A stretch of DNA of 34,376 nucleotides from Planctomycetota bacterium (GTDB taxonomy: Bacteria; Planctomycetota; Phycisphaerae; SM23-33). Below are positions 13,127 through 29,399 of this stretch, piece by piece. The stretch lies in NCBI GenBank assembly GCA_016235825.1, contig JACRIL010000185.1, positions 1-34,376 on the forward strand. The letters run 5' to 3'. Position numbers and translations under genes: made by a program. How positions within the stretch are numbered: position 1 is the first letter of the stretch; each line of letters starts with the position of its first letter. Below the pieces are notes generated by a model that made no database searches, had not been told where the DNA came from, and saw only the letters and a list, made by a program, of their open reading frames with translations.

Positions 13127-14486
13127 CGACGAGCGCATCAAGCGTTCGATCCTGGAAGACGAGCTGAAGGCGGGCGGCTATGAAGTGGCCATCGCCGAGA
13201 ACCCGCTCCAGGCCGAACCCAAGATGGCAAAGGCGACATTCGATGTCATTGTAACCGATCTGCGCATGCCAGGTCAGGACGGCCTGTCCTTTCTTCGCCA
13301 GGTCAAGCAGCGTCAGCCGGACCAGCAGGTCATCGTCATGACGGCCTACGGGACGGTGGAGACGGCCGTGGAGGCCATGAAACTGGGGGCGTTCGATTAC
13401 CTTCTGAAGCCGTTCGCCACCGAGGAGCTGCTGCTGAAAATCGACCGGCTTCTGCAATACCGCCGCCTGGCCAGCGAAAACGAAGCCCTTCGCCAGCAAT
13501 TGGCGGTGCAGGGTCCCAGCCGCATTGTCGGGCAGTCGGAAAGCATCCGCCAGTTGTTGGCCCGCATCCATATGGTGGCCGCCACCGACAGCACAGTGCT
13601 CATCGACGGCGAGAGCGGCACGGGCAAGGAGTTGGTTGCCCGGATGCTGCATGAAACGTCCCATCGTTCCCAAGGCCCCTTCGTGGCCGTTTCCTGCGCG
13701 GCTTTGCCGAAGGAACTCATTGAAAGCGAACTGTTCGGGCATGAGTCGGGCGCGTTCACCGGGGCGTCCCGGCAGCGGATCGGCCGATTTGAACTGGCCC
13801 ACGGCGGGACGCTGTTCCTGGACGAAGTGGACGATATCCCAATGGAAGTGCAGGTCAAACTCCTGCGGGCCTTGCAGGAGAGGACCTTCGATCGTGTCGG
13901 GGGCGAAGGGACTGTTCAATTCAACGTTCGGGTCGTGGCGGCGACAAAACGTCCGATCGCGCCGCTCGTGGAGGAAGGCCGCTTTCGCGAGGACCTGTAC
14001 TACCGCCTGGCCGTCGTGCCGCTGCACATTCCGCCGTTGCGCGAACGGCGGGAGGACATCCGCTGCCTGGTGGAATTCTTCCTCCAGAGGCTGGCGACCC
14101 GTCTGAATCGCGAGAGTCTCTCCGTAACGCCAGAGGCCCTGCGGAAACTTCAGGAGTACTCATGGCCGGGCAACGTGCGGCAATTGGAGCATATGCTGGA
14201 GCAGATGGCCGCCCTCAATCCCGGGGGAATTCTGGACGTGCCCGACTTGCCGCCCACAGTGCTTTCCTGTCAACAGTCCGGCATCGTTTCCCTTTCGCTG
14301 GAAGGCCGGTCCAGGGTGGACCTGTCCAAGGTGATGGAGGAAACGGAGGCGTCCCTGCTGCAATGGGCGATCCAGAAGTGCGGGGGAAACCTCAACCAGG
14401 CTGCGGCTGTGCTCGGGATCGCGAGGTCCACGTTGCAGTACAAGGCGGCTAAACATCTCGAATTGCCAAAGGAGCATATGAGTTAA
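13095..14486 (+). CDS. NtrC-family sigma-54-dependent response regulator
   Basis: This 463-residue regulator has a receiver domain with 'LIVDDERIK' and the phospho-acceptor Asp55 in 'VTDLRMPG', a conserved Thr in 'MTAYG' and Lys in 'LLKPF'. The AAA+ domain has Walker A from Gly172 ('GESGTGKE'), the sigma-54 contact loop GAFTGA at 219-224, Walker B 'GGTLFLDEVDDIP' and the arginine-finger region 'FREDLYYRL'. The C-terminal Fis-type helix-turn-helix is 'NLNQAAAVLGIARSTLQYK'. It overlaps the kinase gene by 32 bases, so the two are co-translated. The intact GAFTGA means it can activate sigma-54 RNA polymerase, and a -24/-12 promoter lies ~190 bases downstream of its stop, in front of the molybdoenzyme genes. 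Confidence 0.95.
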   Translation: MTARARILIVDDERIKRSILEDELKAGGYEVAIAENPLQAEPKMAKATFDVIVTDLRMPGQDGLSFLRQVKQRQPDQQVIVMTAYGTVETAVEAMKLGAFDYLLKPFATEELLLKIDRLLQYRRLASENEALRQQLAVQGPSRIVGQSESIRQLLARIHMVAATDSTVLIDGESGTGKELVARMLHETSHRSQGPFVAVSCAALPKELIESELFGHESGAFTGASRQRIGRFELAHGGTLFLDEVDDIPMEVQVKLLRALQERTFDRVGGEGTVQFNVRVVAATKRPIAPLVEEGRFREDLYYRLAVVPLHIPPLRERREDIRCLVEFFLQRLATRLNRESLSVTPEALRKLQEYSWPGNVRQLEHMLEQMAALNPGGILDVPDLPPTVLSCQQSGIVSLSLEGRSRVDLSKVMEETEASLLQWAIQKCGGNLNQAAAVLGIARSTLQYKAAKHLELPKEHMS

Positions 14487-14830
14487 CGGATTTCTGGCGG
14501 CAGCGACGGCAATTCGTCAGCGGACGTATCTTTTTGTCTTGATTGATCTTGGGATTTGATCCCCGTGGATTCAGGCTGGGATTCGTCGCAATTTCCTGCC
14601 ATTTTTTTCCCTGTTTTTATCATCGGCGTTTTTGTAACTGACGCAACACGAGCGACTTATGTGTTTACTATCTTCCTGGCATGTCCCTTGCTAAGAAAGA
14701 GGCAACGTGCCTTGGTTTTTGTCTGCGCACATCGACAATCACCGAGAGAAATGGCATCGAGAATGGCAAGTCGCCGGCAGTTTGAAGCGATCCGGGCGCC
14801 AAATTCGAGCATGAAGGATAGGCAAAACAC
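14487..14830 (+). promoter_or_regulatory. Regulatory gap upstream of the molybdoenzyme operon
   Basis: This 344-base gap holds no convincing gene. Relative to its neighbours it is AT-rich around 14590-14670. The sigma-54 promoter at 14677-14692 leaves ~190 bases upstream for activator binding. Possible recognition elements are the short dyad GACG-N6-CGTC (14505-14518) and two ATTCGTC copies (14512-14518 and 14581-14587), all weak. No intrinsic terminator for the regulator gene is visible. Confidence 0.55.
14677..14692 (+). promoter_or_regulatory. Sigma-54 (-24/-12) promoter of the molybdoenzyme operon
   Basis: TGGCATGTCCCTTGCT matches the sigma-54 consensus TGGCAC-N5-TTGCW in all but one base, with exactly ten bases between the GG and GC dinucleotides. 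Transcription would start near 14703, giving a leader of ~128 bases to the ATG at 14831. Its position directly downstream of a sigma-54 activator gene makes control by that regulator very likely. Confidence 0.85.
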
Positions 14831-15610
14831 ATGGATATGACCAGACGTGGGTTTCTGAAAGGGGCAGGGGTCGCTGTGGCGGCTGCAACGGCGACGGCTC
14901 TGCCTGGGTGCCTCCAAGAAGCATCCGCCGGCAATGGCAATCGGCGATGGGGCATGGTTATCGACCTCAAGCGATGCATAGCCTGCAAGGCTTGCGGGGC
15001 GGCCTGCCGGCTTGAGAACAAGACGCCGCCAGGCGTGGCTTACGGGGTCTTCCTGGATGAGGAGAAGGGACAGTTCCCGCATGCCTATCGCCTGTCCTTC
15101 TTCCGGCCCTGCATGCAGTGCGAGGAATCATCCTGCGCTAAGGTCTGCCCGACGGGCGCGACCAGCCACCGCAAAGACGGGATCGTCGGCGTGGACTACG
15201 AGAAATGCATCGGCTGCCGTTACTGCATCGCCGCCTGCCCATATGGCGCGAGGTCCTTCGATTACGGGCACAACTACATTGAGGCGGCAAACAACCCGTA
15301 CAACGCCATTCCCTCTTCGGAGTATGGCGCCGAGTACGGCCTGCGCAGCAAGGGCCGTTCGCCCATCGGCAACGTCCGCAAGTGCACCTTCTGCCTGCAC
15401 CTGCAGGACGAGAAGGGCGAATACCGGGAGCCGACGGCCTGCTCCCGCACGTGCATGGGCAAGGCCATCCACTTCGGCGACCTGAAGGACCCGGAGGCCA
15501 AGTGCCTGGTCCACGGCGAGAAGATGCAGGAACTCTTGGCTCGTCGCGGGCATTATCGGCTGAAGGAAGAACTGGGCAATGAGCCGTCCGTCTACTACTT
15601 GCCGGCATAA
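14831..15610 (+). CDS. Tat-exported 4Fe-4S ferredoxin subunit of a molybdoenzyme (PsrB/NrfC/TtrB-like)
   Basis: This 259-residue electron-transfer subunit has a twin-arginine signal ('MTRRGFLKGAG', h-region rich in Ala) ending in 'LPGC', so it may be a Tat lipoprotein. Four Cys groups follow in the order typical of DmsB/PsrB/NrfC proteins: 'CIACKACGAAC', 'CMQCEESSCAKVCP', 'CIGCRYCIAACP' and 'CTFC'...'CSRTC'. These should hold four [4Fe-4S] clusters that wire the membrane quinol site of the NrfD subunit to the catalytic subunit. It is the first gene after the sigma-54 promoter and is followed 18 bases later by the membrane subunit gene. Ribosome-site match is modest (AAGGA at ~14815). Confidence 0.92.
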   Translation: MDMTRRGFLKGAGVAVAAATATALPGCLQEASAGNGNRRWGMVIDLKRCIACKACGAACRLENKTPPGVAYGVFLDEEKGQFPHAYRLSFFRPCMQCEESSCAKVCPTGATSHRKDGIVGVDYEKCIGCRYCIAACPYGARSFDYGHNYIEAANNPYNAIPSSEYGAEYGLRSKGRSPIGNVRKCTFCLHLQDEKGEYREPTACSRTCMGKAIHFGDLKDPEAKCLVHGEKMQELLARRGHYRLKEELGNEPSVYYLPA

Positions 15611-15628
15611 CTGAGGAGCAAATAAAAC

Positions 15629-16912
15629 ATGAACGAACTGAAGACTACTTTTTCGCAAGGGAGCGTCATTGCCCGCTTGCTGGGATATCTGATCCTTCTG
15701 GCCGTATCGGCCGTCGGAGTGTGGGCGATTTTCGGAACACTCCGGGACGGGCATATTGAAGCCACCACCACACAGAATGTGCCATGGGGGTTGTGGGTTG
15801 CTCTGTACATCTTTTTTCTGGGTCTTTCGGCCGGCTCTTTCCTGCTCTCGACGCTGGTCTATGTGTTCGGCATCAAGAAGCTGGAACCGGCTGGACCGCT
15901 GGCGCTGCTCCAGGCCCTCGGCTGCCTGGTTCTCGGCGGGATGTTAATCCTGCTGGACTTGGGCCATCCTGCGCGTATGTACAAAATAATCACCTCCATG
16001 AACCCGACCTCGGTAATGGCCTGGATGGGGTTCTTCTACAACATCTACATCGTCGTTGTGCTGGTCGAGATATACTTCGCCCTCCGGCCGCAACTGGTGC
16101 TCAAAGCTCAAGCCGGCGGGAGCAGCGCCTGGTGGTATCGGCTGCTGGCGCTGGGCAGCAAGCGGCTTGATCCGGCCAGCTTGGCGCGAGACAAGAAGTG
16201 GCTGATGGCCTTGGGCATTCTGGGCATTCCCATAGCCATAACCGTGCACGGCGGCGTGGGTTCGATCTTCGCGGTGGCCAAGGCCCGGCCCAACTGGTTC
16301 GGCGGGCTGTTCCCGATCATATTCCTGATCTCGGCGCTGGCCTCCGGCGGAGCCTTGCTGGCGCTACTGACCGCGGTCTTCTCCAGGCTGCCCAAGGAGG
16401 CCAAGCGCGGAGTAGTCCGGACGATCATGCGGCTCACGGTCGGCATACTCGCTTTCGATCTCCTGCTCATGTGCAGCGAGATAATGGTTACCTATTACGG
16501 GAACATTCCTCACGAGGTTGCCGGGTGGAACTTTGCGATGTTCGGCCCCAGTTGGTGGGTTTTCTGGCTCATCCAACTGGCTGTCGGAGCAGCCATCCCC
16601 ATTCTTATCGTGATAAACCCCAAGACCGGGCGCAGCGCAGGCTGGCTCGGTTTGGCGGGCCTTCTGGTGGTGGTGGGGATCATCGGCGCCAGATGGAACC
16701 TGGTGGTTCCGCCGCAACTGACCCCGACTTTCGACGCGCTTCCCAACGCCTACCACCACGCGCGTTTTGCGTTAGGCTACGTCCCGAGCGTTCACGAGTT
16801 TCTGGTCGGCTTGGGCGTGGTTGCCTTGGGTCTGTGGGCCTTTTTGTTGTTGCGGAAGCTTTTGCCGCTCGATGAGGCTGAGCTTGCGGGCGTTGAAAAC
16901 CACCACGTATAA
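15629..16912 (+). CDS. nrfD: NrfD/PsrC-type membrane quinone-interacting subunit
   Basis: This 427-residue polytopic membrane protein has about nine to ten hydrophobic helices. Sequences such as 'WGLWVALYIFFLGLSAGSF' and 'LDLGHPARMYKII' early in the protein are characteristic of the NrfD/PsrC family, which exchange electrons with menaquinone. GAGGAG at 15613-15618 precedes the ATG. It sits between the FeS and molybdopterin genes, so it is the membrane anchor of this complex iron-sulfur molybdoenzyme. The family includes PsrC, TtrC, NrfD and ActC/QrcD, so sequence alone does not name the substrate. The gene symbol is given at family level. Confidence 0.9.
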   Translation: MNELKTTFSQGSVIARLLGYLILLAVSAVGVWAIFGTLRDGHIEATTTQNVPWGLWVALYIFFLGLSAGSFLLSTLVYVFGIKKLEPAGPLALLQALGCLVLGGMLILLDLGHPARMYKIITSMNPTSVMAWMGFFYNIYIVVVLVEIYFALRPQLVLKAQAGGSSAWWYRLLALGSKRLDPASLARDKKWLMALGILGIPIAITVHGGVGSIFAVAKARPNWFGGLFPIIFLISALASGGALLALLTAVFSRLPKEAKRGVVRTIMRLTVGILAFDLLLMCSEIMVTYYGNIPHEVAGWNFAMFGPSWWVFWLIQLAVGAAIPILIVINPKTGRSAGWLGLAGLLVVVGIIGARWNLVVPPQLTPTFDALPNAYHHARFALGYVPSVHEFLVGLGVVALGLWAFLLLRKLLPLDEAELAGVENHHV

Positions 16913-16929
16913 AAATAGGAGATGTTACA

Positions 16930-19386
16930 GTGAGTTCAATAACACGCAGAAAATTTCTGGCCGGCTCGGTGCTGGCTGCCGGCGGCATGTCCTGGCTGCT
17001 GAAAAGCCGCACGATGCAGGCCTTCGCCGCCGAGGTTGACAAGCGATACGACTTCAAGGCCGGCACATGGATACCGACCTGCTGCCATATGTGCGGCGGG
17101 ACTACCGGCATCCTCTGCCAGGTGGTGGATGGCAAGGTCATCCGCATCAAGCCCAACTCGGCCAACCCCTGCGGGTTCTCGAACATCTCCGACGATTTCT
17201 TCAAGAACTGCGCCACTGAGGGCGCCACCATGTGCCCCAAGGGCAACAGCGGCATGATGACCCTCTACGACCCCGACCGGCTGGCCAAGCCCGTCCGGCG
17301 CACCAATCCCAAGAAGGGCATCGGCGTGGATCCCGGCTGGAAGGAGATAACATGGGATGAGGCCTACAGCGAGATCGCCGCACGCATGAAGAAGCTGCGC
17401 GACGCGGGCACGCCCGAGGCGCTCCTGTGGTTCTCCGAGGACCACTGCTTCACGCACATCCAGGGGGACTTCTGCCAACTCTTCGGCACCCCCAACTACA
17501 GCAACCACTCCAACCTGTGCGACACCGCACGCAAGGCATCCTTCAAGGCTGTCATTGGGGATGAGCGGCCGCTGATGGACGCCATCCAATCGCGATACAT
17601 CCTGCTCTTCGGCTGGAATCCGCTGGGCGCCACCAAGTGGGCTCATCTGCCCCGGATCATGACTCGCGCCCGGGAGCGAGGCGCCAAGCTCGTGGTCGTG
17701 GATCCCTACTACTCGTCCACCGCCCGCAAGGCCGACGAGTGGGTCCCGATCCGTCCGGGCACCGATGGCGCCTTGGCACTGGCCATGGCCCACGTCATCA
17801 TCCGCGACGGGCTCCAGGACAAGGACTTCGTCGAGAAGTGGACCTACGGCTTCGACAAGTTCTCGGAGTACGTCAAGGACAAGACGCCAGCCTGGGCTGA
17901 GAAGATCACCACAGTTCCGGCCGAGACCATCGAGCGGATCGCCCGGGACTTCGCCACCACCCAGCCCGCGGTCGTGGACGTGTGGTCCGGCCCTGGACAG
18001 CACGAAAACTGCGTACACGGCGGGGCGGCCATCGCCTGCCTGGCGACCTTGACCGGCGGCTACGACCGGCCTGGGACCCTGCACCTGCCCAACAAGAAGG
18101 GCAACGCGCACGGCCACCTCCATGCCGATAAGCCCAAGGCGCCGCGCTTCGCCGACGATAACAAGCTCTACCCGATGTTCCACGGCTCGGGCGTTTATTG
18201 CGAAATCTTCAAGCAGCTCGCCGAGGGTAAAGGCAAGTATCCGGCCAAAATGGCTATGATCGTCTTTCAGAACCCGATGATGTCCCTGCCGGGCACAGAA
18301 ACGGTCGCCAAGGCCCTGGCCAGCTTGGAGTTCGTGGTTGTCAACGACATCTTCCTGTCGGAAACATCCCAATTTGCCGACATCGTCGTCCCGGGGACCA
18401 CCTACCTGGAGCGCTACGACTGGAACACCCACTGGGTAACCTGGCCGGTCCTGGCATTGCGCCAGCCGGTGGTCAAGCCTATCTTCGGCCAGCCCGCCGA
18501 GTACGAGTTCGTCGCCGAACTGGGCCGCCGGCTAGACCTGCGAGACAAGGACAACAAAGAGTTCTTCAAGATCGGTCCGCTCTCCGGCCAGCCCATCGAG
18601 AACCTCACCGCCTGGTACGAGGACTACTTCTCCGCCGAGTCCAAGAACGGCGCGCCCAAGCTGACTCTGGAGGAAATCAAGGCCCTGCCCGGCGCGGTCT
18701 GGGTGGACAAAGGCGGCACCAAGTACGGGAAGTTCAAGAGCGAGCTGAAAGCGGAGGATGTGGCCAAGGCCACCATCGTCAAGGCCAAGGTCGGAGACCT
18801 GGAGATCGAGCAGATATTCGACAAACCCAAGGACCAAGGCGGCAAGCGCATCGGCACGATGATCGACGGCAAGGCCGTCAAAGGCTTCATGACCCCGACC
18901 GGCAAGGTGGAGTTTGTCCTTAACTGTCTGACCGGCAAGAAGGATGCCGAGGGCAAGTCTTGCTCGGATCTCCCGGTGTACACGCCTCGCGACTGGCAGC
19001 CGGACGCCCAGTACCCGTTGTTCCTCATTAACTGGAAGGAGGCCACCCACACCCACACCCGCACCCAAAACAACCGCTGGCTCCTGGAGTTCAAGCCCGA
19101 CAATCCCCTCCAGATCAACCGCAAGACCGCCGAACGTCTGGGCATCAGCGACGGCGATCAGGTTGTGGTCGAGTCCAAATTCGGCAGTGCCAAGGCCAAA
19201 GCCCACGTAACCGAAGAAATCCATCCTGAGGTGGTCGGGCTGCAACACGGCTTTGGCCACTGGGCCATGGGCGCGGCGGCCAAGGGACGCGGAACATCGG
19301 ATGGCATCCTGCGCCCGCTGAGGGCCGACCCCATCGGGGGCCAGGCGCTGCACAAGGAATGTTGCGTGCGGGTGAAGAAGGCGTAG
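16930..19386 (+). CDS. Tat-exported molybdopterin oxidoreductase, catalytic subunit (DMSO reductase superfamily)
   Basis: This 818-residue protein starts at GTG, supported by AGGAG at 16917-16921. A twin-arginine signal ('SSITRRKFLAGSV', ending 'FAAEV') shows export of the folded cofactor-loaded enzyme. The N-terminal cluster motif is Cys51-Cys52-x2-Cys55-x7-Cys63 and later 'MCPKG'; the residue where the usual third Cys stands is Thr59. Molybdopterin-binding signatures include 'YILLFGWNPLGA', 'KLVVVDPYYSSTARKADEWVP', 'RPGTDGALALAMAHVI' and a C-terminal dinucleotide domain ('WKEATHTHTRTQNNRWL', 'ERLGISDGDQVVVES'). Cys197 in 'SNLCDTARK' is the likely Mo ligand, as in polysulfide, thiosulfate and arsenate reductases rather than the Ser or Asp enzymes. 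The substrate is not determinable: Psr/Phs/Sre, Arr or Ttr-like activities are candidates. Confidence 0.9.
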   Translation: MSSITRRKFLAGSVLAAGGMSWLLKSRTMQAFAAEVDKRYDFKAGTWIPTCCHMCGGTTGILCQVVDGKVIRIKPNSANPCGFSNISDDFFKNCATEGATMCPKGNSGMMTLYDPDRLAKPVRRTNPKKGIGVDPGWKEITWDEAYSEIAARMKKLRDAGTPEALLWFSEDHCFTHIQGDFCQLFGTPNYSNHSNLCDTARKASFKAVIGDERPLMDAIQSRYILLFGWNPLGATKWAHLPRIMTRARERGAKLVVVDPYYSSTARKADEWVPIRPGTDGALALAMAHVIIRDGLQDKDFVEKWTYGFDKFSEYVKDKTPAWAEKITTVPAETIERIARDFATTQPAVVDVWSGPGQHENCVHGGAAIACLATLTGGYDRPGTLHLPNKKGNAHGHLHADKPKAPRFADDNKLYPMFHGSGVYCEIFKQLAEGKGKYPAKMAMIVFQNPMMSLPGTETVAKALASLEFVVVNDIFLSETSQFADIVVPGTTYLERYDWNTHWVTWPVLALRQPVVKPIFGQPAEYEFVAELGRRLDLRDKDNKEFFKIGPLSGQPIENLTAWYEDYFSAESKNGAPKLTLEEIKALPGAVWVDKGGTKYGKFKSELKAEDVAKATIVKAKVGDLEIEQIFDKPKDQGGKRIGTMIDGKAVKGFMTPTGKVEFVLNCLTGKKDAEGKSCSDLPVYTPRDWQPDAQYPLFLINWKEATHTHTRTQNNRWLLEFKPDNPLQINRKTAERLGISDGDQVVVESKFGSAKAKAHVTEEIHPEVVGLQHGFGHWAMGAAAKGRGTSDGILRPLRADPIGGQALHKECCVRVKKA

Positions 19387-19594: not shown

Positions 19595-20488
19595 ATGGAA
19601 ATGTCGTCGATGATTATGGAATCAGGCCTGGAATTATTGGGCGAGGTCCGAGCAGCAATCTCAGAGAGATTGGAGCGGATGCAGTCCGCCTTGGGCGTGA
19701 AGAGCGATCTGTTGCTGCCCGGCAAGATGCTCCGGACGCGTTTGGCTGGGCGACTGGAGGCCGCAGGCGCTTGTCAGGCGGAGCACGAGACGATCGTGGC
19801 CGCCTGCGCCGCGACGGAGATGGTGCACACCGCCAGTCTTTGCCACGACGACGTGATCGACGAGTCGTCTTTGCGGCGGCACAGGCCGGCCCTGTGGACC
19901 GTGGCGGGCCGTTCCGCGGCGGTGCTCACCGGCGACCTGCTGCTGTGCGAGGCGATGGACCTGGTGCTTCAGATACAAGGCGGACTGTATGTGCGGCCGT
20001 TCCTTTCTAAAGTCCGCCAGGTGGTGGAGGCCGAAATCCGCCAGGAGTTGCTGCACCGGGGGCAGACGATGGACACACAGACATATCTTCGCGTGGCCAG
20101 GGAAAAAACCGGACCGCTGTTTGCGTTTGTCGCCGAGGTCTGCGCCGGGCGGGACCCGGCCTTCCGGCAGGCGCTGGAGCAGGCGGGATACCTGGTCGGA
20201 ACAGCCTATCAGCTTGTGGACGACCTGATTGACGTGACGGGCCGGGAAGACGCGGCGGGCAAGGCCCTTGGCATGGACGCGGCCCGGAACAAATTCACGC
20301 TTCCCCAGGCGGATCGGGACGGCGTGGCCGCAACAAAGAACTTTGTCCGCATTCTGCTGACGGAAGCCGTCGAAACCCTCCACCCCTTTGCTGCCGCCCG
20401 GGCCGGACTGGAATCTTTCATCCGCGACGACCTGGGGCATGCAATGGCCGTCCAGGGCGTGGATATCAAGAAGGAACGCGTGGCATGA
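19595..20488 (+). CDS. Polyprenyl diphosphate synthase (trans-isoprenyl, class I)
   Basis: This 297-residue enzyme elongates farnesyl or geranylgeranyl diphosphate with isopentenyl diphosphate to make the quinone side chain. The first Asp-rich motif is DDVID (85-89) followed by 'RRHRPALW', and the second is DDLID (209-213); both Mg-binding motifs are intact. 'GKALGMDAARNKFTLP' matches the 'GKPxGxDxxxGKxTLP' block in degenerate form. Length is slightly below the usual 320. The gene overlaps nqrA by four bases (ATGA) and heads an operon that also contains a MenA/UbiA-type prenyltransferase, so menaquinone tail synthesis is the natural role. Several in-frame ATGs (19595, 19604, 19613) lie close together without a clear ribosome site, so the exact start is uncertain. 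Confidence 0.88.
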   Translation: MEMSSMIMESGLELLGEVRAAISERLERMQSALGVKSDLLLPGKMLRTRLAGRLEAAGACQAEHETIVAACAATEMVHTASLCHDDVIDESSLRRHRPALWTVAGRSAAVLTGDLLLCEAMDLVLQIQGGLYVRPFLSKVRQVVEAEIRQELLHRGQTMDTQTYLRVAREKTGPLFAFVAEVCAGRDPAFRQALEQAGYLVGTAYQLVDDLIDVTGREDAAGKALGMDAARNKFTLPQADRDGVAATKNFVRILLTEAVETLHPFAAARAGLESFIRDDLGHAMAVQGVDIKKERVA

Positions 20489-21873
20489 AATTGCGTGGCG
20501 GTTATACCGTTCAAATGGCCGGAAAGCCCGTTGGATCTGTCGAGGTGCTCCCGGACCCTGACGAATTATATCTGCCCTTGTTCAGCCGCCGATTCCGCTT
20601 CACCGAATTGTGCGTCGGCGACGGTGATCGCGTCCGGCCGGGAAAGGTGTTGGCCAGAGACCCGTCGAATCACGGCGTGCCGCTGCTGGCGCCGCGGGAG
20701 GGGACGGTTCGCCTGAATGCGATCCCGCGGCATCTGGTGCTTCAGAACGTTTCCGCCGGCGTTCCGGAGCCTCTTGAGGATTCCGATGAGCCGTCCCACA
20801 TTCCACGCAACCTCGGCTCGGTCGAAATGAAGCGGAACAAGCTGCTGCTGCTGGGGGCATGGCAATACTTCTTCGACGCTCACAGCGGCGCCCTGCCGAA
20901 CCCGTTCGGCACGCCGCAGGCCGTTATTGTCTCCACACTCAATCTGGAGCCGTTCCTGGGGCGCGGCGACGTGCAGTTGCGGGCTCGCCTCAAGAGCTTC
21001 ACCCGCGGCCTCGAGCAGATCCAGACGCTGTTGGAGTACCAGCCGATCTTCCTGATCCTGCCCAAGGTCGCCGCCGCACTGGCCGAGCAGGTCAGCCAGG
21101 CGATCCGGGGATACGCCCACATCAAACCGGTCCATGTGCCGCTTCGGTATCCCTTCGACAACTTCACGGTGCTGGCGCGATACCTGGGCCTGAAACGCCA
21201 GAAAGACCAACCGGTCTGGGCGCTGCGGACCGAGGGCGTGCTGGCCCTGGACCGGGCGTTGACGGCGTCGAAGCCCTGCGACCTGCGGGTGATCTCCATC
21301 GGCGGCCCCGCCGCCACTTCGCCGGCGCACGTGGTCGCGATGCCCGGATATCCGCTCAAGACGCTCCTTTCCAAAAGGATCGCCGACGGTCCGGTGCGGG
21401 TGCTCAACGGCGGGGTGCTGAGCGGACAGGAGATCGCCCCCGATCAGGCCGGTTTGGACTGCGAGTGCCTTGGAATTACCGCCCTCGGCGAGCAGACCGA
21501 GCGCGAGTTCCTGGCCTTTGTGCGGCCCGGCGCCGGGCGCTGGTCGTACAGCCGGTGTTTTTTGAGCGCGTTGCGCCGCCCGATGCCCGAACGCATGACC
21601 ACGGCCATTCGCGGTGAGCATCGTCCCTGCGTGTCGTGCGGCTTCTGCGAGGAAATCTGCCCCGCGGGCATCATGCCGCACCTTCTGCACAAGCTGTTGT
21701 ACCAGGACGATCTTGAAGCCGCTATAAAAGTCCGGCTGGACCTGTGCGTCGCCTGCGGGCTTTGCTCGTTCGTGTGCCCCTCGAAGATCGACTTGTGCGG
21801 TCAATTCCAGAAGGCGATGGAGACATTTCGCATGGAACAAATGGAACATATGGCACAGGAGGCGCCCGCATGA
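20485..21873 (+). CDS. nqrA: NqrA-type subunit of Na+-translocating NADH:quinone oxidoreductase with two extra [4Fe-4S] motifs
   Basis: This 462-residue protein follows NqrA along its length: 'LRGGYTVQMAGKP' at the N-terminus, 'LLGAWQYFF', 'RVLNGGVLSGQEI', 'EREFLAFVRPGAGRWSYSR', then 'LLHKLLYQDDLEAA' and 'CSFVCPSKID'. Unlike ordinary NqrA it contains two complete ferredoxin motifs: Cys382, 385, 388, 392 ('CVSCGFCEEICP') and Cys421, 424, 427, 431 ('CVACGLCSFVCP'). These are the positions where RnfC has its clusters and where classical NqrA keeps only a vestigial Cys near 'TFVCPGK'. The following five genes are Nqr-like, including nqrF, so the complex is Nqr rather than Rnf. It would therefore bind two [4Fe-4S] clusters at the cytoplasmic face. 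Overlaps with neighbours are ATGA on both sides. Confidence 0.85.
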   Translation: MKLRGGYTVQMAGKPVGSVEVLPDPDELYLPLFSRRFRFTELCVGDGDRVRPGKVLARDPSNHGVPLLAPREGTVRLNAIPRHLVLQNVSAGVPEPLEDSDEPSHIPRNLGSVEMKRNKLLLLGAWQYFFDAHSGALPNPFGTPQAVIVSTLNLEPFLGRGDVQLRARLKSFTRGLEQIQTLLEYQPIFLILPKVAAALAEQVSQAIRGYAHIKPVHVPLRYPFDNFTVLARYLGLKRQKDQPVWALRTEGVLALDRALTASKPCDLRVISIGGPAATSPAHVVAMPGYPLKTLLSKRIADGPVRVLNGGVLSGQEIAPDQAGLDCECLGITALGEQTEREFLAFVRPGAGRWSYSRCFLSALRRPMPERMTTAIRGEHRPCVSCGFCEEICPAGIMPHLLHKLLYQDDLEAAIKVRLDLCVACGLCSFVCPSKIDLCGQFQKAMETFRMEQMEHMAQEAPA

Positions 21874-22958
21874 AGTTGCTGGAACGGCTGCTTGACAGGA
21901 CTCGCGGCGCCTTCGCCGAAGGCAAGCGCCTGCATCGGACCAAGCCGGTGTTCGACGCGGCGGAGAACTTCTTCTTCGCCCCGATATCTCGGGCGAAATC
22001 GGCGCCGTTCGTTCACGACCCGCTGGACATCAAGCGGCTGATGTCGATGGTCATCATCGCTATTTTGCCCGCGCTGGCGTGTGCGGTGTATTTCTTCGGC
22101 CTGCATGTGCTGGCGATGGTGGTAGTCTCATATGCCGCCGGCGGCATCGTCGAGGTGCTGTTCGCGGTCGTCCGCAAGGAAGAGATCAACGAGGGGTTCC
22201 TGGTAACCGGAATGCTGTTCCCGCTGATTCTTCCGCCGGCGCTGCCGCTGTGGATGGTGGCGGTAGGGGTGATGTTCGGCGTGCTGGTCGGCAAGGAGCT
22301 CTTCGGCGGCACGGGGCGGAACCTGTTCAACCCCGCCCTGGTCGGCCGGGTTTTTCTGGCCTTGGCGTATCCGGCGGCGATGGCGGGAAACTGGATCAGC
22401 CCCGTCGCGGAGCCGCCAGGGCGGATTCTCCAGTACGTTTCGTCCGGCGCCGTCGACGCAATTGCCGGGGCCACCCCGTTGGCCGCGGCCAAACAGGGCC
22501 AGTTGGCGGGCTTGCAGGAGATGTTTCTGGGCAATGTTGCCGGCAGCGCGGGCGAGACCTCAGCCCTGGCGATCCTGCTGGGCGGGATACTGCTGATCAT
22601 GACGCGGGTGGCCAGTTGGCGGATTGTCGTCGGCGTGCTTGGCTCTTTCCTGCTGATGGAGACGGTTCTGCATTACACGCTGCCCGGCCCAATTCCGCCG
22701 CCGATGTGGCAGTTATTGGCGGGCGGAATCCTGTTCGGGGCGTTCTTCATGGCTACCGACCCGGTTACCAGTCCGGCGACCACGGGCGGAAAGTGGGCTT
22801 ACGCGATCATTATCGGTTTGGCGACCGCCCTGATTCGCCACCTCACCGGATACGTCGAGGGCGTCATGTTCGCGATCCTGCTGGGCAACATCTGTGCGCC
22901 TCTGTTGGACGAGGTGGCCGTGGCGGTCCGCCTTCGGAGACTTGCCCATGAAAGTTGA
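21870..22958 (+). CDS. nqrB: Nqr subunit B, membrane flavoprotein
   Basis: This 362-residue polytopic protein has an NqrB-specific N-terminal stretch ('FDAAENFFFAP', 'HVHD'-like 'FVHDPLDIKRLMSMVI') and then about ten membrane helices. Thr202 in 'IAGATPLA' is the expected covalent FMN attachment threonine. 'FFMATDPVTSPATTGGKW' is the conserved RnfD/NqrB block. AGGAGG at 21857-21862 selects the ATG at 21870; the frame is open further upstream, but that part overlaps nqrA and is not conserved. It is shorter than Vibrio NqrB (~415). NqrB carries the Na+ pathway and quinone site of the complex. Confidence 0.93.
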   Translation: MKLLERLLDRTRGAFAEGKRLHRTKPVFDAAENFFFAPISRAKSAPFVHDPLDIKRLMSMVIIAILPALACAVYFFGLHVLAMVVVSYAAGGIVEVLFAVVRKEEINEGFLVTGMLFPLILPPALPLWMVAVGVMFGVLVGKELFGGTGRNLFNPALVGRVFLALAYPAAMAGNWISPVAEPPGRILQYVSSGAVDAIAGATPLAAAKQGQLAGLQEMFLGNVAGSAGETSALAILLGGILLIMTRVASWRIVVGVLGSFLLMETVLHYTLPGPIPPPMWQLLAGGILFGAFFMATDPVTSPATTGGKWAYAIIIGLATALIRHLTGYVEGVMFAILLGNICAPLLDEVAVAVRLRRLAHES

Positions 22959-23583
22959 CACATACACGTATACCATGATTTATGCGGTGGTGCTGGGAGT
23001 CGTCTGCGCCGCGATGCTGACGGCGGCCGGGCAGTTTGCGGCGCCGTACAAGGAAGCCAACGCCAAGGCGGACGAGATGCGCCATGTCCTGACCGTTCTG
23101 AGAGTGCCATTCGATCCCAAAAGCACAGCCGCGAAACTGGCGCAGGCCTTCGAGCAGAACGTCCGGGGCCGGGATCGCGGCGGCATGAGCGTGTACGAGT
23201 ACGTCGCGAGCGACGGAAAGATGCTGGCTCAGGCTGTGCCCTTCGCCGGCCCGGGGGTATGGGGTCCGATGCGGGGTTTTCTGGCCCTCGGGCCCGATGG
23301 GGTTACCATTGTGGAAGTGAGCTTCTACGAGCAGGAGGAGACGCCGGGCTTGGGCGGCGAGATCGGATCGAAGTGGTTCCAGGACCAGTTTCAAGGGCGG
23401 CGGATCGTAGATGCCCAAAATCGTCCCGGTATCCGCATTCGCCGCGACGGAGCCAAGGGTTCCAACGAAGTGGACGGCATCGCTGGGGCGACCATGACGT
23501 GCGACAAGGTTGAGATCATGCTGAATGAGACAATCCAAAGGCTTTTGAAGGAGCGGAAGAACAATGACCGCAACAGCCAGTAA
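22948..23583 (+). CDS. nqrC: Nqr subunit C, covalent-FMN subunit
   Basis: This 211-residue protein has a single N-terminal membrane helix (~8-28) and an FMN-binding domain facing the periplasm. 'DGIAGATMTCDKVE' gives the S/AGATxT motif, with Thr184 as the covalent FMN ester site. 'EQEETPGLGGEI' is the conserved RnfG/NqrC segment. It overlaps nqrB by 11 bases and nqrD by 20, indicating translational coupling. The start at ATG 22948 is preferred because the upstream in-frame codons lie inside nqrB. A flavin transferase (ApbE) is needed for maturation and is not in this window. Confidence 0.92.
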   Translation: MKVDTYTYTMIYAVVLGVVCAAMLTAAGQFAAPYKEANAKADEMRHVLTVLRVPFDPKSTAAKLAQAFEQNVRGRDRGGMSVYEYVASDGKMLAQAVPFAGPGVWGPMRGFLALGPDGVTIVEVSFYEQEETPGLGGEIGSKWFQDQFQGRRIVDAQNRPGIRIRRDGAKGSNEVDGIAGATMTCDKVEIMLNETIQRLLKERKNNDRNSQ

Positions 23584-24238
23584 ATCGCCGGCCGCTTGCG
23601 GACCCTGCGCGGCAGGGTTGCTGTGCGACGGAAAAGCAGGGAAGATCGTCAAGGACGGAGTTTGGGCAAACAACCCCATTTCCATACAGGTGCTGGGCAT
23701 CTGCTCGGCCCTGGCCGTAACCAATAAACTCGCCAACGCCCTGGTAATGGGCGGGGCCCTGATCTTTGTGACCGCCTGCTCCAGCCTGTTCCTGTCCTTC
23801 CTGCGGAACGCCACACCGCGAAAAATCCGTATGATCGCCGAGGTGGCCATCATCTCCACCTTCGTGATCGTCTTCGACCAGCTCCTCAGGGCCTTTTACT
23901 GGGACATGTCCAAGCAGCTCGGGCCTTATGTGGGGCTGATCATCACCAACTGCATCGTCATGGGCCGGGCCGAGGCCTTCGCGCTCCAGAATCGCCCCAT
24001 AGCGTCGGCGTTGGACGGGATAGCCAACGGGCTGGGGTATGCGATTGTGCTGGCCGTTATCGCCGTTTTTCGCGAGATGATCGGAGCGGGAAAGCTCCTG
24101 GGTTTTTCAATCCTTGATAAAGTATGGTACGAGCCTAATCAGTTGATGATTCTCGCGCCGGGGGCGTTCTTTACGCTTGGAATACTGATTGCCCTGCTGA
24201 ACGCCCTCCGCAAAGACGTTCCGGAGACCAAACCATGA
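23564..24238 (+). CDS. nqrD: Nqr subunit D with Cys-rich N-terminal extension
   Basis: This 224-residue protein of about six helices is a member of the NqrD/RnfE family ('NNPISIQVLGICSALAVT', 'GLIITNCIVMGRAEAFA', 'GYAIVLAVIAVFREMIG'). Cys47 and Cys130 correspond to the two NqrD cysteines that, with two of NqrE, hold the intramembrane Fe-S centre. The first ~30 residues are longer than usual and contain 'CGPCAAGLLC' (Cys12, 15, 21), which I do not recall from standard NqrD. AAGGAG ten bases upstream supports ATG 23564. It overlaps nqrE by four bases. Confidence 0.92.
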   Translation: MTATASKSPAACGPCAAGLLCDGKAGKIVKDGVWANNPISIQVLGICSALAVTNKLANALVMGGALIFVTACSSLFLSFLRNATPRKIRMIAEVAIISTFVIVFDQLLRAFYWDMSKQLGPYVGLIITNCIVMGRAEAFALQNRPIASALDGIANGLGYAIVLAVIAVFREMIGAGKLLGFSILDKVWYEPNQLMILAPGAFFTLGILIALLNALRKDVPETKP

Positions 24239-24843
24239 GCGAGACCTCAGCCTTCATCATCATCGTCGCGGCCATCTTCACCAACAACATTCTGCTGTCC
24301 AATTTTCTGGGTATGTGTTCGTTTCTGGTGTGCAGCCGGCAGATAGGTACCGCCCTGGGGTTGGGGGCGGCGGTGATCTTCGTGATGACCTGCACGACAG
24401 TGCTGAACTACGGGATATACTACGGCGTGCTGGTCAAAGACGCCCCGCTCTGCTCGGCGGACCTGACGTTCCTGGCGTTCATTATCTTCATCGCGGTGAT
24501 CGCGGCCTTCGTGCAGTTCGTCGAGATGTTCGTGGAGCGATTCAGCCCCAAACTGTACTACGCGCTGGGCATTTTCCTCCCGCTGATTACCGTGAATTGC
24601 GCGATCCTGGGCGCGGCGCTGTTCATGATCATCCGCAAGTACTCGTTCTGGCAGTCGCTGGGTTACGGCTTCGGCGCGGGCGTCGGATGGGCGTTGGCGA
24701 TCCTGCTGATCGCGGGACTTCGGAAAAAGATGGGCTATAGCCGGGTTCCCAAGCCTTTTCAGGGAGTGTCCATCGCCATGATCATTACCGGCGTCATGGC
24801 CATGACGTTCATGGGATTTGCAGGCATGGTATCGATCCAATAG
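24235..24843 (+). CDS. nqrE: Nqr subunit E
   Basis: This 202-residue six-helix membrane protein of the NqrE/RnfA family ('FTNNILLSNFLGMCSFL', 'PLITVNCAILGAALFMI', ending 'AMTFMGFAGMVSIQ'). Cys28 and Cys122 match the conserved cysteines that complete the Fe-S site shared with NqrD. The length and the C-terminal 'FMGF.GM' are typical of NqrE rather than RnfA. The start overlaps the nqrD stop (ATGA). Confidence 0.94.
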   Translation: MSETSAFIIIVAAIFTNNILLSNFLGMCSFLVCSRQIGTALGLGAAVIFVMTCTTVLNYGIYYGVLVKDAPLCSADLTFLAFIIFIAVIAAFVQFVEMFVERFSPKLYYALGIFLPLITVNCAILGAALFMIIRKYSFWQSLGYGFGAGVGWALAILLIAGLRKKMGYSRVPKPFQGVSIAMIITGVMAMTFMGFAGMVSIQ

Positions 24844-24853: not shown

Positions 24854-25945
24854 ATGATCTACCTGATAGCAATTGGAGTTTTCGCCGGGCTGCTGCTGGC
24901 CTTGGCGGCACTGATCGCAGTGGCGGAACGCGTGCTGGTGAATTACGGCATCTGCAATGTGGACATCAATGCTGGCGAACGTCCGCTGGATGTCGATGGC
25001 GGGCAGACCCTCCTGTCGGCGTTGTATACAAACAAGCTGTTCATTCCGTCCGCCTGCGGCGGCAAGGGTTCCTGCGGCTTCTGCAAGGTGACGGTGCTGG
25101 AAGGCGGCGGGCCTGTCCTGCCCACTGAGACCCCGTATCTGTCCCGCAAGGAGGTCCGTTCCGGGTTGCGCCTGGCCTGCCAGGTGAAAATCCGCCAGAA
25201 CATCCGGATTCGCGTCCCTGACGACATGCTGAACGTCAAGATGTTCACGGCTTCCGTGGCCGGCACTCGCGAGGTTACCCACGACATCAAGGAGATACGC
25301 TTCGCATTGCACGATCCGCCCGAGATATCCCATCGCCCCGGGCAGTACGTGCAGGTTCAGGCCCCCTCGCCGGACGGGCCGGTGTTTCGGGCGTACTCCA
25401 TCAGTTCCCCGACATATGAGAAGAACGAGGTGGAACTCAACGTCCGCCTGGTGCCCAACGGCATCGGATCGACCTATTTGCACAATCTGAAGGAAGGCGA
25501 CCCGGTAACCTTCACAGGCCCGTACGGGGAGTTTGTCCTCAACGAAGACCCGGCGGTCGAGATCATCTGCGTCGGGGGCGGGTGCGGCATGGCCCCGATG
25601 AAGAACATCATCTATTCGCTCTACTCCCGCTGGCCGGACCGGCAGTGCTGGCTGTTCTTCGGATGCCGCAGCGCGCGCGACGTCTTCTATTTGCAGGAAT
25701 TCCAGGCTCTGGCGCGCAAGCACCCGAGCTTCCACGTGTTCTACGCGCTTTCGGACCCTGTCGGGCCCCAGGAGCAATGGGACGGGGAAGCCGGCTTCAT
25801 CCACCTGTCGGTTGACAAACACCTGGAGGCGGGCGTCCGCCGGCAGGCGTTCCTGTGCGGCCCGCCTCCGATGATCGAGGCCGTTACACGCGTCCTTGCG
25901 GAAAAGGGCCTGCGGCCCCAGGACATATTCTACGACAAGTTCTGA
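24854..25945 (+). CDS. nqrF: Nqr subunit F, NADH dehydrogenase flavoprotein
   Basis: This 363-residue electron-entry subunit has one N-terminal membrane helix (~1-27) and a plant-type [2Fe-2S] domain with Cys68, Cys74, Cys77 and Cys109 ('ACGGKGSCGFC', 'LACQV'). The FAD domain has 'RAYSISSP', and the NADH domain has 'VGGGCGMAPMK' and 'FLCGPPPMIEAV'. NADH is oxidised here and electrons pass via FAD and [2Fe-2S] into the membrane core. It is shorter than Vibrio NqrF (~407). Its presence separates this complex from Rnf, which lacks NqrF and uses ferredoxin through RnfB; no rnfB-like gene is here. Confidence 0.95.
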   Translation: MIYLIAIGVFAGLLLALAALIAVAERVLVNYGICNVDINAGERPLDVDGGQTLLSALYTNKLFIPSACGGKGSCGFCKVTVLEGGGPVLPTETPYLSRKEVRSGLRLACQVKIRQNIRIRVPDDMLNVKMFTASVAGTREVTHDIKEIRFALHDPPEISHRPGQYVQVQAPSPDGPVFRAYSISSPTYEKNEVELNVRLVPNGIGSTYLHNLKEGDPVTFTGPYGEFVLNEDPAVEIICVGGGCGMAPMKNIIYSLYSRWPDRQCWLFFGCRSARDVFYLQEFQALARKHPSFHVFYALSDPVGPQEQWDGEAGFIHLSVDKHLEAGVRRQAFLCGPPPMIEAVTRVLAEKGLRPQDIFYDKF

Positions 25946-25962: not shown

Positions 25963-26415
25963 ATGGCGAGCATCACGATACAGGGCGTATTGAAACATGC
26001 GGAGGATTTCGAGCGGATGCTGTCGGACTATTACGCGGGCATCGCCTCGCACACCGCCCGGGAGGGCGTGCGGCTGTTGACGGACTACATGGCCCGCCAC
26101 CGCATCCGCCTCCATGAGGCGCTGAGCCGCCTGGACCCCGCCGAAGCGGCGCATCTGATCGCCACGCCGCTGCGCTTCCAGCCCAAGGCCGCCGACTGCA
26201 CGTGCTTTGAAAAGATCCAACTTCCCGAAGGGGCCGGCGCCGCCGAGGTGCTGGACGCTGCCGTTACATTGGACGACTGCCTGATCCTGCTGTATCGCCA
26301 GGTGCTCGTCCAGGACATCAGCCCGGAGATCCGCGATCTGTTTGAGAGCCTTCTCCGAAGCGAGCAGCGGGACCAGATGGAACTCAAAAAGATCAAGGCG
26401 ATGGACTACTTCTGA
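25963..26415 (+). CDS. Ferritin-like/rubrerythrin-like helical-bundle protein
   Basis: This 150-residue, mostly helical protein has its carboxylate and His residues spaced as in ferritin-like four-helix bundles ('KHAEDFERMLSDYYAGIA', 'RLHEALSRLDP', 'LDDCLILLYRQVL', 'LLRSEQRDQMELKKIKAMD'). The Cys pair 'DCTCFE' mid-protein is extra. GAGG at 25953-25956 supports ATG 25963. It begins 17 bases after nqrF and its stop overlaps the next kinase gene by one base. A diiron oxidoreductase or peroxide-protecting role for the oxygen-sensitive Nqr and molybdoenzyme is possible, but the metal ligands cannot be assigned with confidence. The gene is otherwise unrecognised. Confidence 0.65.
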   Translation: MASITIQGVLKHAEDFERMLSDYYAGIASHTAREGVRLLTDYMARHRIRLHEALSRLDPAEAAHLIATPLRFQPKAADCTCFEKIQLPEGAGAAEVLDAAVTLDDCLILLYRQVLVQDISPEIRDLFESLLRSEQRDQMELKKIKAMDYF

Positions 26416-27857
26416 TGCTGCAACCAGCGCCACATTCTTGGCCCGTCTATGCGCTGCCGCCGGCAAGGAGCGAATCGGCCCGGGACGTGCCCGCCGGACA
26501 GGAGGAGGCGGCCCTTTCGGAGCCTCTGCTTCATAACAGTATCGAGTGGTTCTGCCGCCTGAGATGGGCCGTGGTGATCCTGCTGGTATTGGCGGGACTG
26601 ATCAACAACATCACGGTAATCGCCGATGCCGTGGGGCTGGTGCGCGTGATATACTGGCCCTTTATTTGTGCGGGCTTGCTGGCGGCGGCCAACCTGGGGT
26701 TCCTCCGGCACGCGCGGAATCTGGACGATCCCCAATCGCGCAACGCGGTTTATGGCAACTTATGGTGCCAGATCGTCCTGGATTTGCTGGTGCTGACGGT
26801 AGTCGTCCATCTCGTCGGAAGCACCACGACCTTCATCGCGTTCGCCTACCTGTTTCACATCGTTGTGTCCTGCATATTTTTCCCGGCCCGATTGAGCCTG
26901 ATCGTGGCGCTCCTGGCTGAGAGCCTGTTCATACTGTGCGTTGTTGCGGAACAGGCCGGGCTGCTGCGTCCCCAGACGATATTCTCGGATCCGTCCAACG
27001 CCGCTCGGGGCGAGGTGGCCTTCGATGTCGCCTCGGCGGTGCTGATCTGGACGGCGGTGTGGCACCTGACTTCGCACCTGGCCGCAACCGTCCGTCAGAG
27101 GAGCGCGGCCCTGGCCGATGCCAATAATCGGCTGCTGGCCGCGCAGGAAGAACGAGCCCAGTACATGCTGATCACAACGCATCAGCTCAAGTCGCCGTTC
27201 GCAGCCATTCACGCCCAGGCGCAATTGCTGCTGGAAGGATATTGCGGTCCGCTGGGCGAACAGGTGGCGGCGGTGGTGCAGCAGATCACCGCCCGCTGTC
27301 GCCGCCTGACGCGGGAAATACAGGAAATGCTTCAGTTGGCCAACCTGAGATCCAACAGCCAGACGGTTGCGCAGAAGGATCAGATAGATCTGTCCCGATT
27401 GATTCGCTGGTGCATGGACGAACTGGAGCCGATCCGCCTGGAGCGCGATATCCGGATGGAGCTGAACCTTCAGGATGTCGCGGTTGTTGGGGTGGAGGAC
27501 CACTTCAGGATGCTCCTGGGCAATCTCCTGTCGAACGCCATAACGTATTCGCGGATCGGGGGCGTCGTTCGGGCCGGCTGCGGATGCGATGCCGATGGTT
27601 GTCCATATGTCACTATCGCCGATGAAGGTATCGGCATCGAGCCGACAAAGCTGCCCCGTATTTTCGATGAATACTACCGCACTAATGAGGCCGTGAAGCA
27701 CAATCCGCAATCCTCCGGATTGGGACTGGCTATCGTCAAGCAGATCGCCCAGTTGCACGGCATACAGGTCCGAGTTGAAAGTCTGGCAGGAGCGGGGACT
27801 GCTTTCCATCTGATGTTCCCCCGCTCGTGCGCTCATCCGGCCGTAACAACATCATAA
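26415..27857 (+). CDS. Membrane sensor histidine kinase
   Basis: This 480-residue kinase has an N-terminal region of about six hydrophobic helices (~50-220) without a large periplasmic loop, which suggests sensing within the membrane, for example of quinone redox state or ion gradient. HisKA has His256 in 'ITTHQLKSPFAAI'. The ATPase domain has N box 'LLGNLLSNAITYS', G1 'ADEGIGIE' and G2 'SSGLGLAIVKQIA'. All motifs look functional. The start codon overlaps the previous stop (TGATG), and the downstream gene is a lone receiver. Membership in the Nqr/menaquinone operon suggests that it reports on that respiratory chain; this is inference. Confidence 0.9.
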   Translation: MLQPAPHSWPVYALPPARSESARDVPAGQEEAALSEPLLHNSIEWFCRLRWAVVILLVLAGLINNITVIADAVGLVRVIYWPFICAGLLAAANLGFLRHARNLDDPQSRNAVYGNLWCQIVLDLLVLTVVVHLVGSTTTFIAFAYLFHIVVSCIFFPARLSLIVALLAESLFILCVVAEQAGLLRPQTIFSDPSNAARGEVAFDVASAVLIWTAVWHLTSHLAATVRQRSAALADANNRLLAAQEERAQYMLITTHQLKSPFAAIHAQAQLLLEGYCGPLGEQVAAVVQQITARCRRLTREIQEMLQLANLRSNSQTVAQKDQIDLSRLIRWCMDELEPIRLERDIRMELNLQDVAVVGVEDHFRMLLGNLLSNAITYSRIGGVVRAGCGCDADGCPYVTIADEGIGIEPTKLPRIFDEYYRTNEAVKHNPQSSGLGLAIVKQIAQLHGIQVRVESLAGAGTAFHLMFPRSCAHPAVTTS

Positions 27858-27867: not shown

Positions 27868-28305
27868 ATGGCCTACGTGCTGATAGTGGACGACGATCTT
27901 GACTTCGCCAACACGACGGCGGTCGCCCTGCGCGGGGCAGGGCATGAAGTGAACATGGAATCCAACGTGGACGGCGCCCTGGAGAACATGAATCGCCGTC
28001 GCCCTGACCTGCTCATTCTGGACGTGATGTTCTCCGAGGACATCTCCGCCGGTTTCGTATTGGCGCGGGCGATGCGACACCACCACGAACACCTCAAGGG
28101 CGTCCCCATCCTCATGCTGACCGCCGTAAACACCCGATTTCCGTTGGGATTCGGGCGACGGGACATCGACGACGAGTGGCTGCCGGTGTCCGATTTTCTG
28201 GAGAAACCAGTGGAACTCAAACACCTGGTCCGGCGGGTCGAGGAGCTGCTTGGCAGCCGGTCTTCCGCCCCGGAAGAGGAAAATGAAACTGACGCAACCG
28301 CATGA
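27868..28305 (+). CDS. Stand-alone response regulator receiver protein
   Basis: This 145-residue CheY-like protein has the acidic cluster 'LIVDDDLDF', phospho-acceptor Asp in 'LILDVMFSED', Thr in 'MLTAVN' and Lys in 'FLEKPVE'. There is no DNA-binding or enzymatic output domain, so it must signal by protein contact or pass phosphate on. AGGAG (27857-27861) precedes ATG 27868, 10 bases after the partner kinase. Its 3' end overlaps the moeA remnant by 23 bases. An unusually long beta4-beta5 region ('FPLGFGRRDIDDEWLPVSD') is present. Confidence 0.9.
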   Translation: MAYVLIVDDDLDFANTTAVALRGAGHEVNMESNVDGALENMNRRRPDLLILDVMFSEDISAGFVLARAMRHHHEHLKGVPILMLTAVNTRFPLGFGRRDIDDEWLPVSDFLEKPVELKHLVRRVEELLGSRSSAPEEENETDATA

Positions 28306-28456
28306 TGCGTTGAAAATGATCTTATCCACCGTTCGGCCTTTGCCGGTCGAACGCGTGTCGTTGGATCGTGCCGCGGGGCGCTGCCTGGTGCGCGCCGTCC
28401 GGGCAGATCGCGACCAGCCCCCGACCGACCGTTCTGGCAGGGGCGCCGGAGGATAA
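28283..28456 (+). pseudogene. moeA: moeA remnant: N-terminal 57 codons only
   Basis: This 57-residue frame, 'LTQPHDALKMILSTVRPLP', 'VSLDRAAGRCLV' and 'RDQPPTDRS', matches the first ~50 residues of MoeA (molybdopterin molybdenumtransferase), where family members continue 'AMDGYAVR'. Here it reads 'GRGAGG' and stops. The rest of the ~400-residue enzyme is missing, so this is a deletion remnant. GAGG upstream and the overlap with the receiver gene show that it was once a normal operon member. Its last codons contain GGAGGA (28448-28453), the likely ribosome site for the following menA-type gene, which may explain why the frame survives. Confidence 0.75.
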
Positions 28457-28460
28457 GCCG

Positions 28461-29399
28461 GTGGGGAAAAAACAAATGAATGCAGGCGATCTGGTTGCGG
28501 GACGAACTTCGTTGAAGGTCTGGTTTCGGGCCGTGCGGGCGTTTTCATTCACCGCGTCGCTGACGCCGGTGCTGTTGGGTGCGGTGCTGGCCTTGGGCGC
28601 CCATGACGTGCGGTGGGAATTGACGCCGCTGGTAGCGATGGCGTCCGTTCTGATTCACGCCGGCACCAACCTTGTCAGCGACGCCGCCGACTACCGTCGC
28701 GGCGTGGACCGTCCAGGGACGCACGGAGGAAGCGGCGTGCTGGTGGCCGGGCTGTTGACCGCCGGCCAGGTCTTTTTCGGCGGGCTGGTCCTGCTGGCCG
28801 CCGGGTCCGTCGTGGGGTTGTTCCTTGTCTGGGCGCGGGGGTTGACCGTCCTGTGGCTGGGGTTGGCAGGCGTGGCGGGAGGATTCCTTTATGGAGGCCG
28901 GTCGTTCGGCTATAAGTACATCGCCCTTGGCGACGTAATGGTCTTCCTGCTTATGGGTCCGCTGATCGTCGTGGGGGCGCACTTCACCTTGACGGGCGAG
29001 ATGTCCCTGAGACCACTGCTGGCGTCGCTGCCGGTGGCCTGCCTGGTGACGGCGATCCTGTACTCGAACAATCTTCGCGACATTGCGCATGACTGCAGTT
29101 CCGGCGTGCGGACGTTGGCCGGCATGTTGGGCCTGCGCGGCGCCAAGATCGGATATTTTATCCTGGTTGGCGGCGCATATGCCCTGGCGGCGGCGTGGGC
29201 CGCCTGCGGAGTGCTTTCGCCCTGGACGCTGCTGGTCCTGCTGACTCTTCCGCCGGCATGGAAGAATCTGTCGCTGATCCGGCGGGCCAGGATGAGTAAC
29301 AGTTCGGAGATCGCCGCCATCGACGTTCTGACGGCCCAACTGCATTTGGGCTTCGGGCTGTTGCTGTCGGCCGGCATCTTGCTGGGGGCGGCGGCATGA
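28461..29399 (+). CDS. menA: MenA/UbiA-family quinone prenyltransferase
   Basis: This ~312-residue membrane enzyme has about eight to nine helices. The two Asp-rich prenyl-diphosphate motifs are 'NLVSDAADYRRGVDRP' and 'NNLRDIAHDCSSGVRTLAG', the pattern of MenA, which attaches the polyprenyl tail to 1,4-dihydroxy-2-naphthoate. The futalosine-pathway MqnP is a close alternative. The substrate tail would come from the polyprenyl synthase in the same operon. GTG 28461 is seven bases after GGAGGA; ATG 28476 is an alternative start. The frame is open further upstream, but that section overlaps the moeA remnant and does not look like UbiA. Confidence 0.85.
   Translation: MGKKQMNAGDLVAGRTSLKVWFRAVRAFSFTASLTPVLLGAVLALGAHDVRWELTPLVAMASVLIHAGTNLVSDAADYRRGVDRPGTHGGSGVLVAGLLTAGQVFFGGLVLLAAGSVVGLFLVWARGLTVLWLGLAGVAGGFLYGGRSFGYKYIALGDVMVFLLMGPLIVVGAHFTLTGEMSLRPLLASLPVACLVTAILYSNNLRDIAHDCSSGVRTLAGMLGLRGAKIGYFILVGGAYALAAAWAACGVLSPWTLLVLLTLPPAWKNLSLIRRARMSNSSEIAAIDVLTAQLHLGFGLLLSAGILLGAAA

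Follow-up and report, generated by a model that had tools for sequence, protein, structure and literature searches.

We examined if the locus around positions 20485-21873 (+ strand) of a 34,376-nucleotide contig from a Planctomycetota bacterium (the whole stretch analysed, here called the window) encodes a form of Nqr that kept the iron-sulfur clusters of RnfC within its NqrA subunit, or a complex of some other kind. The gene had been read in the original prediction as an NqrA homologue with two complete ferredoxin motifs, and the open reading frame, its length (462 aa) and the four NqrA-like strings quoted for it were all found at these positions. Both CxxCxxCxxxC motifs were confirmed at residues 382-392 and 421-431, each with Pro directly after it. 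The first is formed by Cys382/385/388/392 (21628-21660, + strand) and is invariant in all complete homologues; the second is formed by Cys421/424/427/431 (21745-21777, + strand), and the C-terminal half of this motif reads LCSFVCPSK, which lines up with the LCxFVCPxK stretch in ordinary NqrA. The 39-residue spacing between the motifs equals that in most RnfC of our sample.

The predicted protein, termed FeS-NqrA, was compared with curated profiles, solved structures and Pfam domains. The NqrA models scored best (NF003761, 182.8 bits over residues 2-452, curated cut-off 450; TIGR01936, 134.6 bits, cut-off 321), above the rnfC model TIGR01945 (100.0 bits, cut-off 245.95); the claimed likeness to NqrA along the length of the protein was thus upheld and a placement within RnfC was not seen. 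All of these scores are under the curated cut-offs, those for NqrA far below, and the label "NqrA homologue" is to be softened to NqrA/RnfC homologue. Among solved structures the best match was V. cholerae NqrA (E 1.9e-29, residues 44-440) and the second-best was RnfC, whose second matching stretch falls on the cluster domain. Pfam detected 4Fe-4S dicluster domains and NQRA_SLBB, and no Nuo51 FMN-binding domain (Complex1_51K); the GxGGAxFPT FMN/NAD motif was absent on alignment with RnfC. The protein sits between the two curated families, NqrA and RnfC.

A complete nqrBCDEF set including nqrF, as originally predicted, follows on the + strand and was assigned by profiles together with motifs or domains: NqrB (21867-22958) has the riboflavin Asn/Asn/Asp, a covalent-FMN Thr motif and the quinone-site GG...NEGF; NqrC (22948-23583) has the covalent-FMN motif AGATMT; NqrD (23564-24238, profile over cut-off) and NqrE (24235-24843) have [2Fe-2S] cysteines within GICSALAVT and TNCIVMGRAEA, and GMCSFL and VNCAILG, respectively; and NqrF (24854-25945) has a TM helix followed by Fer2 [2Fe-2S], FAD and NAD domains. 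The core cofactor motifs, i.e., the D/E cysteines, the FMN threonines of B and C and the riboflavin Asn/Asn/Asp, are all intact, the residues being taken from PMC9325719. The nqrA gene shares 4 bases with the polyprenyl synthase gene upstream and 7 with nqrB; nqrB to nqrF are tightly packed with overlaps or short gaps. The window shares with Na+-NQR (e.g., of Vibrio cholerae) the gene order ABCDEF, the Fer2/FAD/NAD organization of NqrF, the D/E cysteines, the covalent-FMN and riboflavin motifs and the NEGF of the NqrB quinone site. It differs from Na+-NQR by the two [4Fe-4S] motifs of NqrA, by the low NqrA scores, by shorter NqrB (about 363 aa versus about 400-430) and NqrF (about 363 aa versus about 405-430) subunits, and by core subunits that are sister to the conventional Nqr clade, not inside it. 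The nqrF profile scored 283.7 bits, just below its cut-off of 295.

The likeness to Rnf (RnfABCDGE) lies in the two [4Fe-4S] motifs, spaced as at the RnfC C-terminus, in the homologous core and in the gene order (CDGEA for Rnf, ABCDE for the window). A plain rnfC within an rnf operon was rejected for the 20485-21873 gene. We considered if the complex could instead be an Rnf whose RnfB was replaced by an NqrF-like input and which still reduces NAD+ or another carrier in the manner of RnfC. The retained clusters would fit, as would the part of the FMN domain retained by deep relatives and the score of NqrB, which passes the rnfD cut-off and, at 348.9 bits, is just under that for nqrB (349.9). 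This reading is nonetheless very improbable: FeS-NqrA lacks GxGGAxFPT and Complex1_51K, both gone from the window's RnfC counterpart; NADH in and NAD+ out would yield no work; there is no rnfB in the operon, where NqrF stands in its place, and none over cut-off in the window's 93.7% complete genome; and NqrB carries the Nqr quinone-site motif. Equivalents of G141, N156 and F159, the quinone contacts of V. cholerae NqrB (PMC10643135), are conserved in the window and missing from Rnf sequences. The core subunits also fall outside the Rnf clade (100/100). The same genome holds on another contig (C154, locus L038, 18874 bases) an rnfC-rnfD pair at 13929-16962, with a long rnfD-like protein; no rnfG, rnfE, rnfA or rnfB was recognised on that contig.

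Quinone-related genes occur on both flanks of the operon, all on the + strand. A polyprenyl diphosphate synthase (19595-20488), which has the same position in several relatives, probably makes the quinone side chain, and a UbiA-family, MenA-like prenyltransferase (28368-29399) probably serves quinone biosynthesis. Between nqrF and the latter are a conserved 150-aa protein (25963-26415; homologues in 4 relatives), a sensor histidine kinase (26415-27857; a neighbour conserved in some family members) and a response regulator (27868-28305). Just upstream of the operon, at 14831-19386 and also in L031, are Fe-S, NrfD and molybdopterin oxidoreductase genes that probably encode a quinone-linked respiratory complex. 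A pair read from its sequence as resembling the NAD(P) transhydrogenase PntB/PntA lies beside the operon at 30512-33580 (- strand), and two similar tandem proteins of 822 and 907 aa at 1385-6694 apparently arose by duplication. A search for ApbE gave no match in the 93.7% complete draft assembly to which the window belongs, and 10/10 relatives searched had it; the search for NqrM matched nowhere, and its absence from the window is uninformative.

The survey covered 392 genomes of the phylum, 397 of the class, near relatives and one public MAG; outside the phylum the comparison was made with plasmid records (the source of the conventional Nqr and Rnf reference sequences) and E. coli, a thin sampling. 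It yielded 26 further loci of the window type (L010, L031-L034, L069-L071, L132-L148, L157), 11 deeper loci of FeS type (L072-L076, L149-L154) and 13 loci with ordinary, cluster-free NqrA (L035, L077, L079-L087, L155, L156), the ordinary form being common within this phylum. The eight Cys are complete in 26/26 window-type and 11/11 deeper loci, which led us to reject a chance origin of the motifs; an assembly artefact was rejected on finding the same operon in more than 20 genomes. The window-type homologues are 45-60% identical to the window protein and are spread across many genera. As had been supposed, clusters are absent from ordinary NqrA: the motifs are missing in the 13 same-phylum loci and in five reference records, and reviews state that NqrA is without iron-sulfur clusters (PMC12174285; PMC11889175). 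The literature searched held no published description of an NqrA with clusters, and no relative was found among viral contigs. Of the 26 window-type relatives, 21 encode NqrF on one stretch with FeS-NqrA; in three others the stretch is short and truncated by the end of the contig or of the region examined, L034 is without nqrC and nqrF at the locus, and the L148 locus looks disrupted or misassembled. In L078, cut by a contig end, only the first motif is visible. These sequences show FeS-NqrA to be an entire subfamily, backed by a grade of deeper types, and not a one-off; a window-type and a deep-type locus occur together in one genome (G600).

Several loci depart from the window arrangement. 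L088 (genome G124, 2587-8563) has a truncated 352-aa NqrA that keeps both cluster motifs, a long NqrF (549 aa) and a fused NqrD-E (485 aa) reminiscent of the D/E fusion described in anammox Jettenia (PMC6828613); this anammox-like relative, with our reading of the neighbouring genes, points to Planctomycetota as the phylum. Deep-type FeS-NqrA/NqrBCDE cores were found on the - strand in L150 (G543, 1-4069) and L154 (G500, 208-4362), where NqrF has retained its TM helix and Fer2 and a NuoE-like thioredoxin [2Fe-2S] domain replaces the FAD/NADH part; NqrF is followed by a flavoprotein (about 870-1060 aa) with NuoF-like and GltD/NfnL-like parts. From its domains this resembles an Nqr/Rnf core that receives its electrons from an NADH module of complex I or bifurcation type. 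In L152 (G553) the core is the same and NqrF is ordinary. On Ilyobacter polytropus plasmid pILYOP01 (L104, 4495-8350), nqrB-C-D-E-F all best match the window's set, and no nqrA/rnfC gene is within the stretch examined.

Were the clusters kept from Rnf, or acquired later? The main tree was built from concatenated NqrB+D+E (746 columns, mixture model) with NqrA excluded, and roots were assumed to lie on Rnf. Rnf and conventional Nqr each formed a single clade (100/100 for both), the window clade was sister to conventional Nqr (99/98), and L073/L075, L074 and L088 fell outside window and conventional Nqr together. A second, wider sample without the longest rows gave the same topology (window sister, 99/97). 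The AU test rejected placing all FeS types in one clade (p=0.0039), and a second AU test did so moderately (p=0.031). Single-gene NqrB and NqrD trees agreed with the concatenated tree, as did an NqrA tree limited to the part N-terminal to the cluster domain (FeS columns left out); NqrE alone grouped L073/L075 with the window clade. Long-branch attraction, we infer, would draw the long conventional branch to Rnf, and the opposite was seen. In these sequence trees the FeS complexes thus form a grade that lies between Rnf and conventional Nqr. Cluster presence or absence needs one change on the tree, even with FeS types forced into one clade, and given the root on Rnf this was read as one cluster loss.

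The converse possibility, that an ordinary NqrA swapped its C-terminal domain by recombination for the two-cluster, ferredoxin-like domain of RnfC, could draw on the rnfC-rnfD pair of the same genome as donor and on the poor resolution of the C-terminal tree (82 columns, too weak alone to place the window type). That tree nevertheless separates conventional NqrA, window type and Rnf, with the window type not nested inside Rnf; the core-subunit and NqrA N-terminal trees put FeS types outside conventional Nqr; and the FeS domain aligns collinearly with ordinary NqrA, with which it has in common the lead-in TTxxxGxxR just before the first motif (with variations; not in RnfC) and LCxFVCPxK. A secondary gain is thus most improbable.

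The domain anatomy likewise changes by steps from RnfC to NqrA. RnfC has RnfC_N (127 bits), Complex1_51K (186 bits), GxGGAxFPT and the clusters. The deep types L074/L073 score 61/70 bits for RnfC_N and 50/49 bits for Complex1_51K, show traces of NQRA domains and remnants such as GVSSLGTSGIPT, and have both the clusters and NqrF. The window type has GAWQYF where Complex1_51K was lost, with clusters kept; conventional NqrA has NQRA_2nd (208 bits), NQRA_N (133 bits) and no clusters. A vestige of the second cluster, LCxFVCPxK with two of its four Cys, persists in 10/16 ordinary NqrA. The suggestion of a preserved intermediate is supported by the trees made without NqrA, by the NqrA tree without FeS columns, by the stepwise Pfam domains and by the Cys vestige, and the window very probably represents an intermediate state kept from Rnf. 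Reyes-Prieto et al. (2014; PMC4014512) proposed that Nqr arose from an rnf copy that lost RnfB and then recruited NqrF, and that NqrA lost the FMN, NAD and FeS sites of RnfC, the cluster cysteines as a consequence of RnfB loss. The window differs from this model in having NqrF already while the clusters remain.

What would the enzyme do? The product of the locus is probably an NADH:quinone oxidoreductase of Nqr type, ion-translocating and early-branching, that keeps RnfC clusters next to riboflavin. NADH would deliver electrons to NqrF, from which they would run through the [2Fe-2S] of NqrD/E and the FMN of NqrC to the FMN and riboflavin of NqrB, where quinone, the presumed acceptor, would be reduced. 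NqrA would retain the C-terminal two-cluster domain of ancestral RnfC with its FMN/NAD site lost, which would preclude RnfC-style NAD chemistry in any known way. In Rnf, electrons run from riboflavin to RnfC cluster 2 (11.7 A) and to FMN (PMC9588780); in Nqr, riboflavin is 11.6 A from ubiquinone (PMC10643135). The Rnf distance, transferred by homology, would put the proximal cluster of the window enzyme about 12 A from riboflavin, a distance at which the clusters should be electrically connected to it, and riboflavin would face two exits: quinone and the NqrA clusters. With the FMN site gone from NqrA, the clusters would pass single electrons only. An AlphaFold model made from two sequences had a pLDDT of 33 and was set aside.

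It is quite probable that the clusters are bound and redox-active. That they are bound and only structural, relics in what is functionally an ordinary Na+-NQR, is unlikely: no complete homologue has lost any of the eight Cys, despite identities of 45-60% and a spread over many genera, and [4Fe-4S] clusters of this kind are costly and often oxygen-sensitive. In favour of relics, no ferredoxin or flavodoxin gene was seen to recur near the operon, conventional Nqr functions without clusters, and ordinary NqrA, which lacks a cofactor, is thought to be structural (PMC12174285). It is likewise doubtful that the clusters relay or buffer electrons such that quinone receives two in quick succession; riboflavin does hand over single electrons, and its expected distance to the cluster is similar to that to quinone, but conventional Nqr manages without clusters, and quinone is bound within the membrane portion of NqrB, away from NqrA's distal cluster. 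The reading that we rank first, narrowly and tentatively, is that the clusters may serve as a second port through which single electrons pass to or from a soluble carrier such as ferredoxin. The additional ferredoxin route suggested in the original prediction may therefore exist. The extension to a three-way redox hub, with NqrB riboflavin branching between quinone and a ferredoxin-type carrier at the NqrA clusters, is rather unlikely; were it true, one ion pump would link the NADH, quinone and ferredoxin pools.

The transition from Rnf to Nqr has so far been argued mainly from its two endpoints. The FeS types provide living intermediates in order: NqrF alongside an RnfC-like A subunit with an eroded FMN domain, then the FMN site gone with clusters kept, then conventional Nqr. 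The implied order of events is that the input subunit was replaced first, the FMN/NAD site was lost next and the clusters were lost last. Annotation of window-type genes as "nqrA" conceals their different cofactor set.
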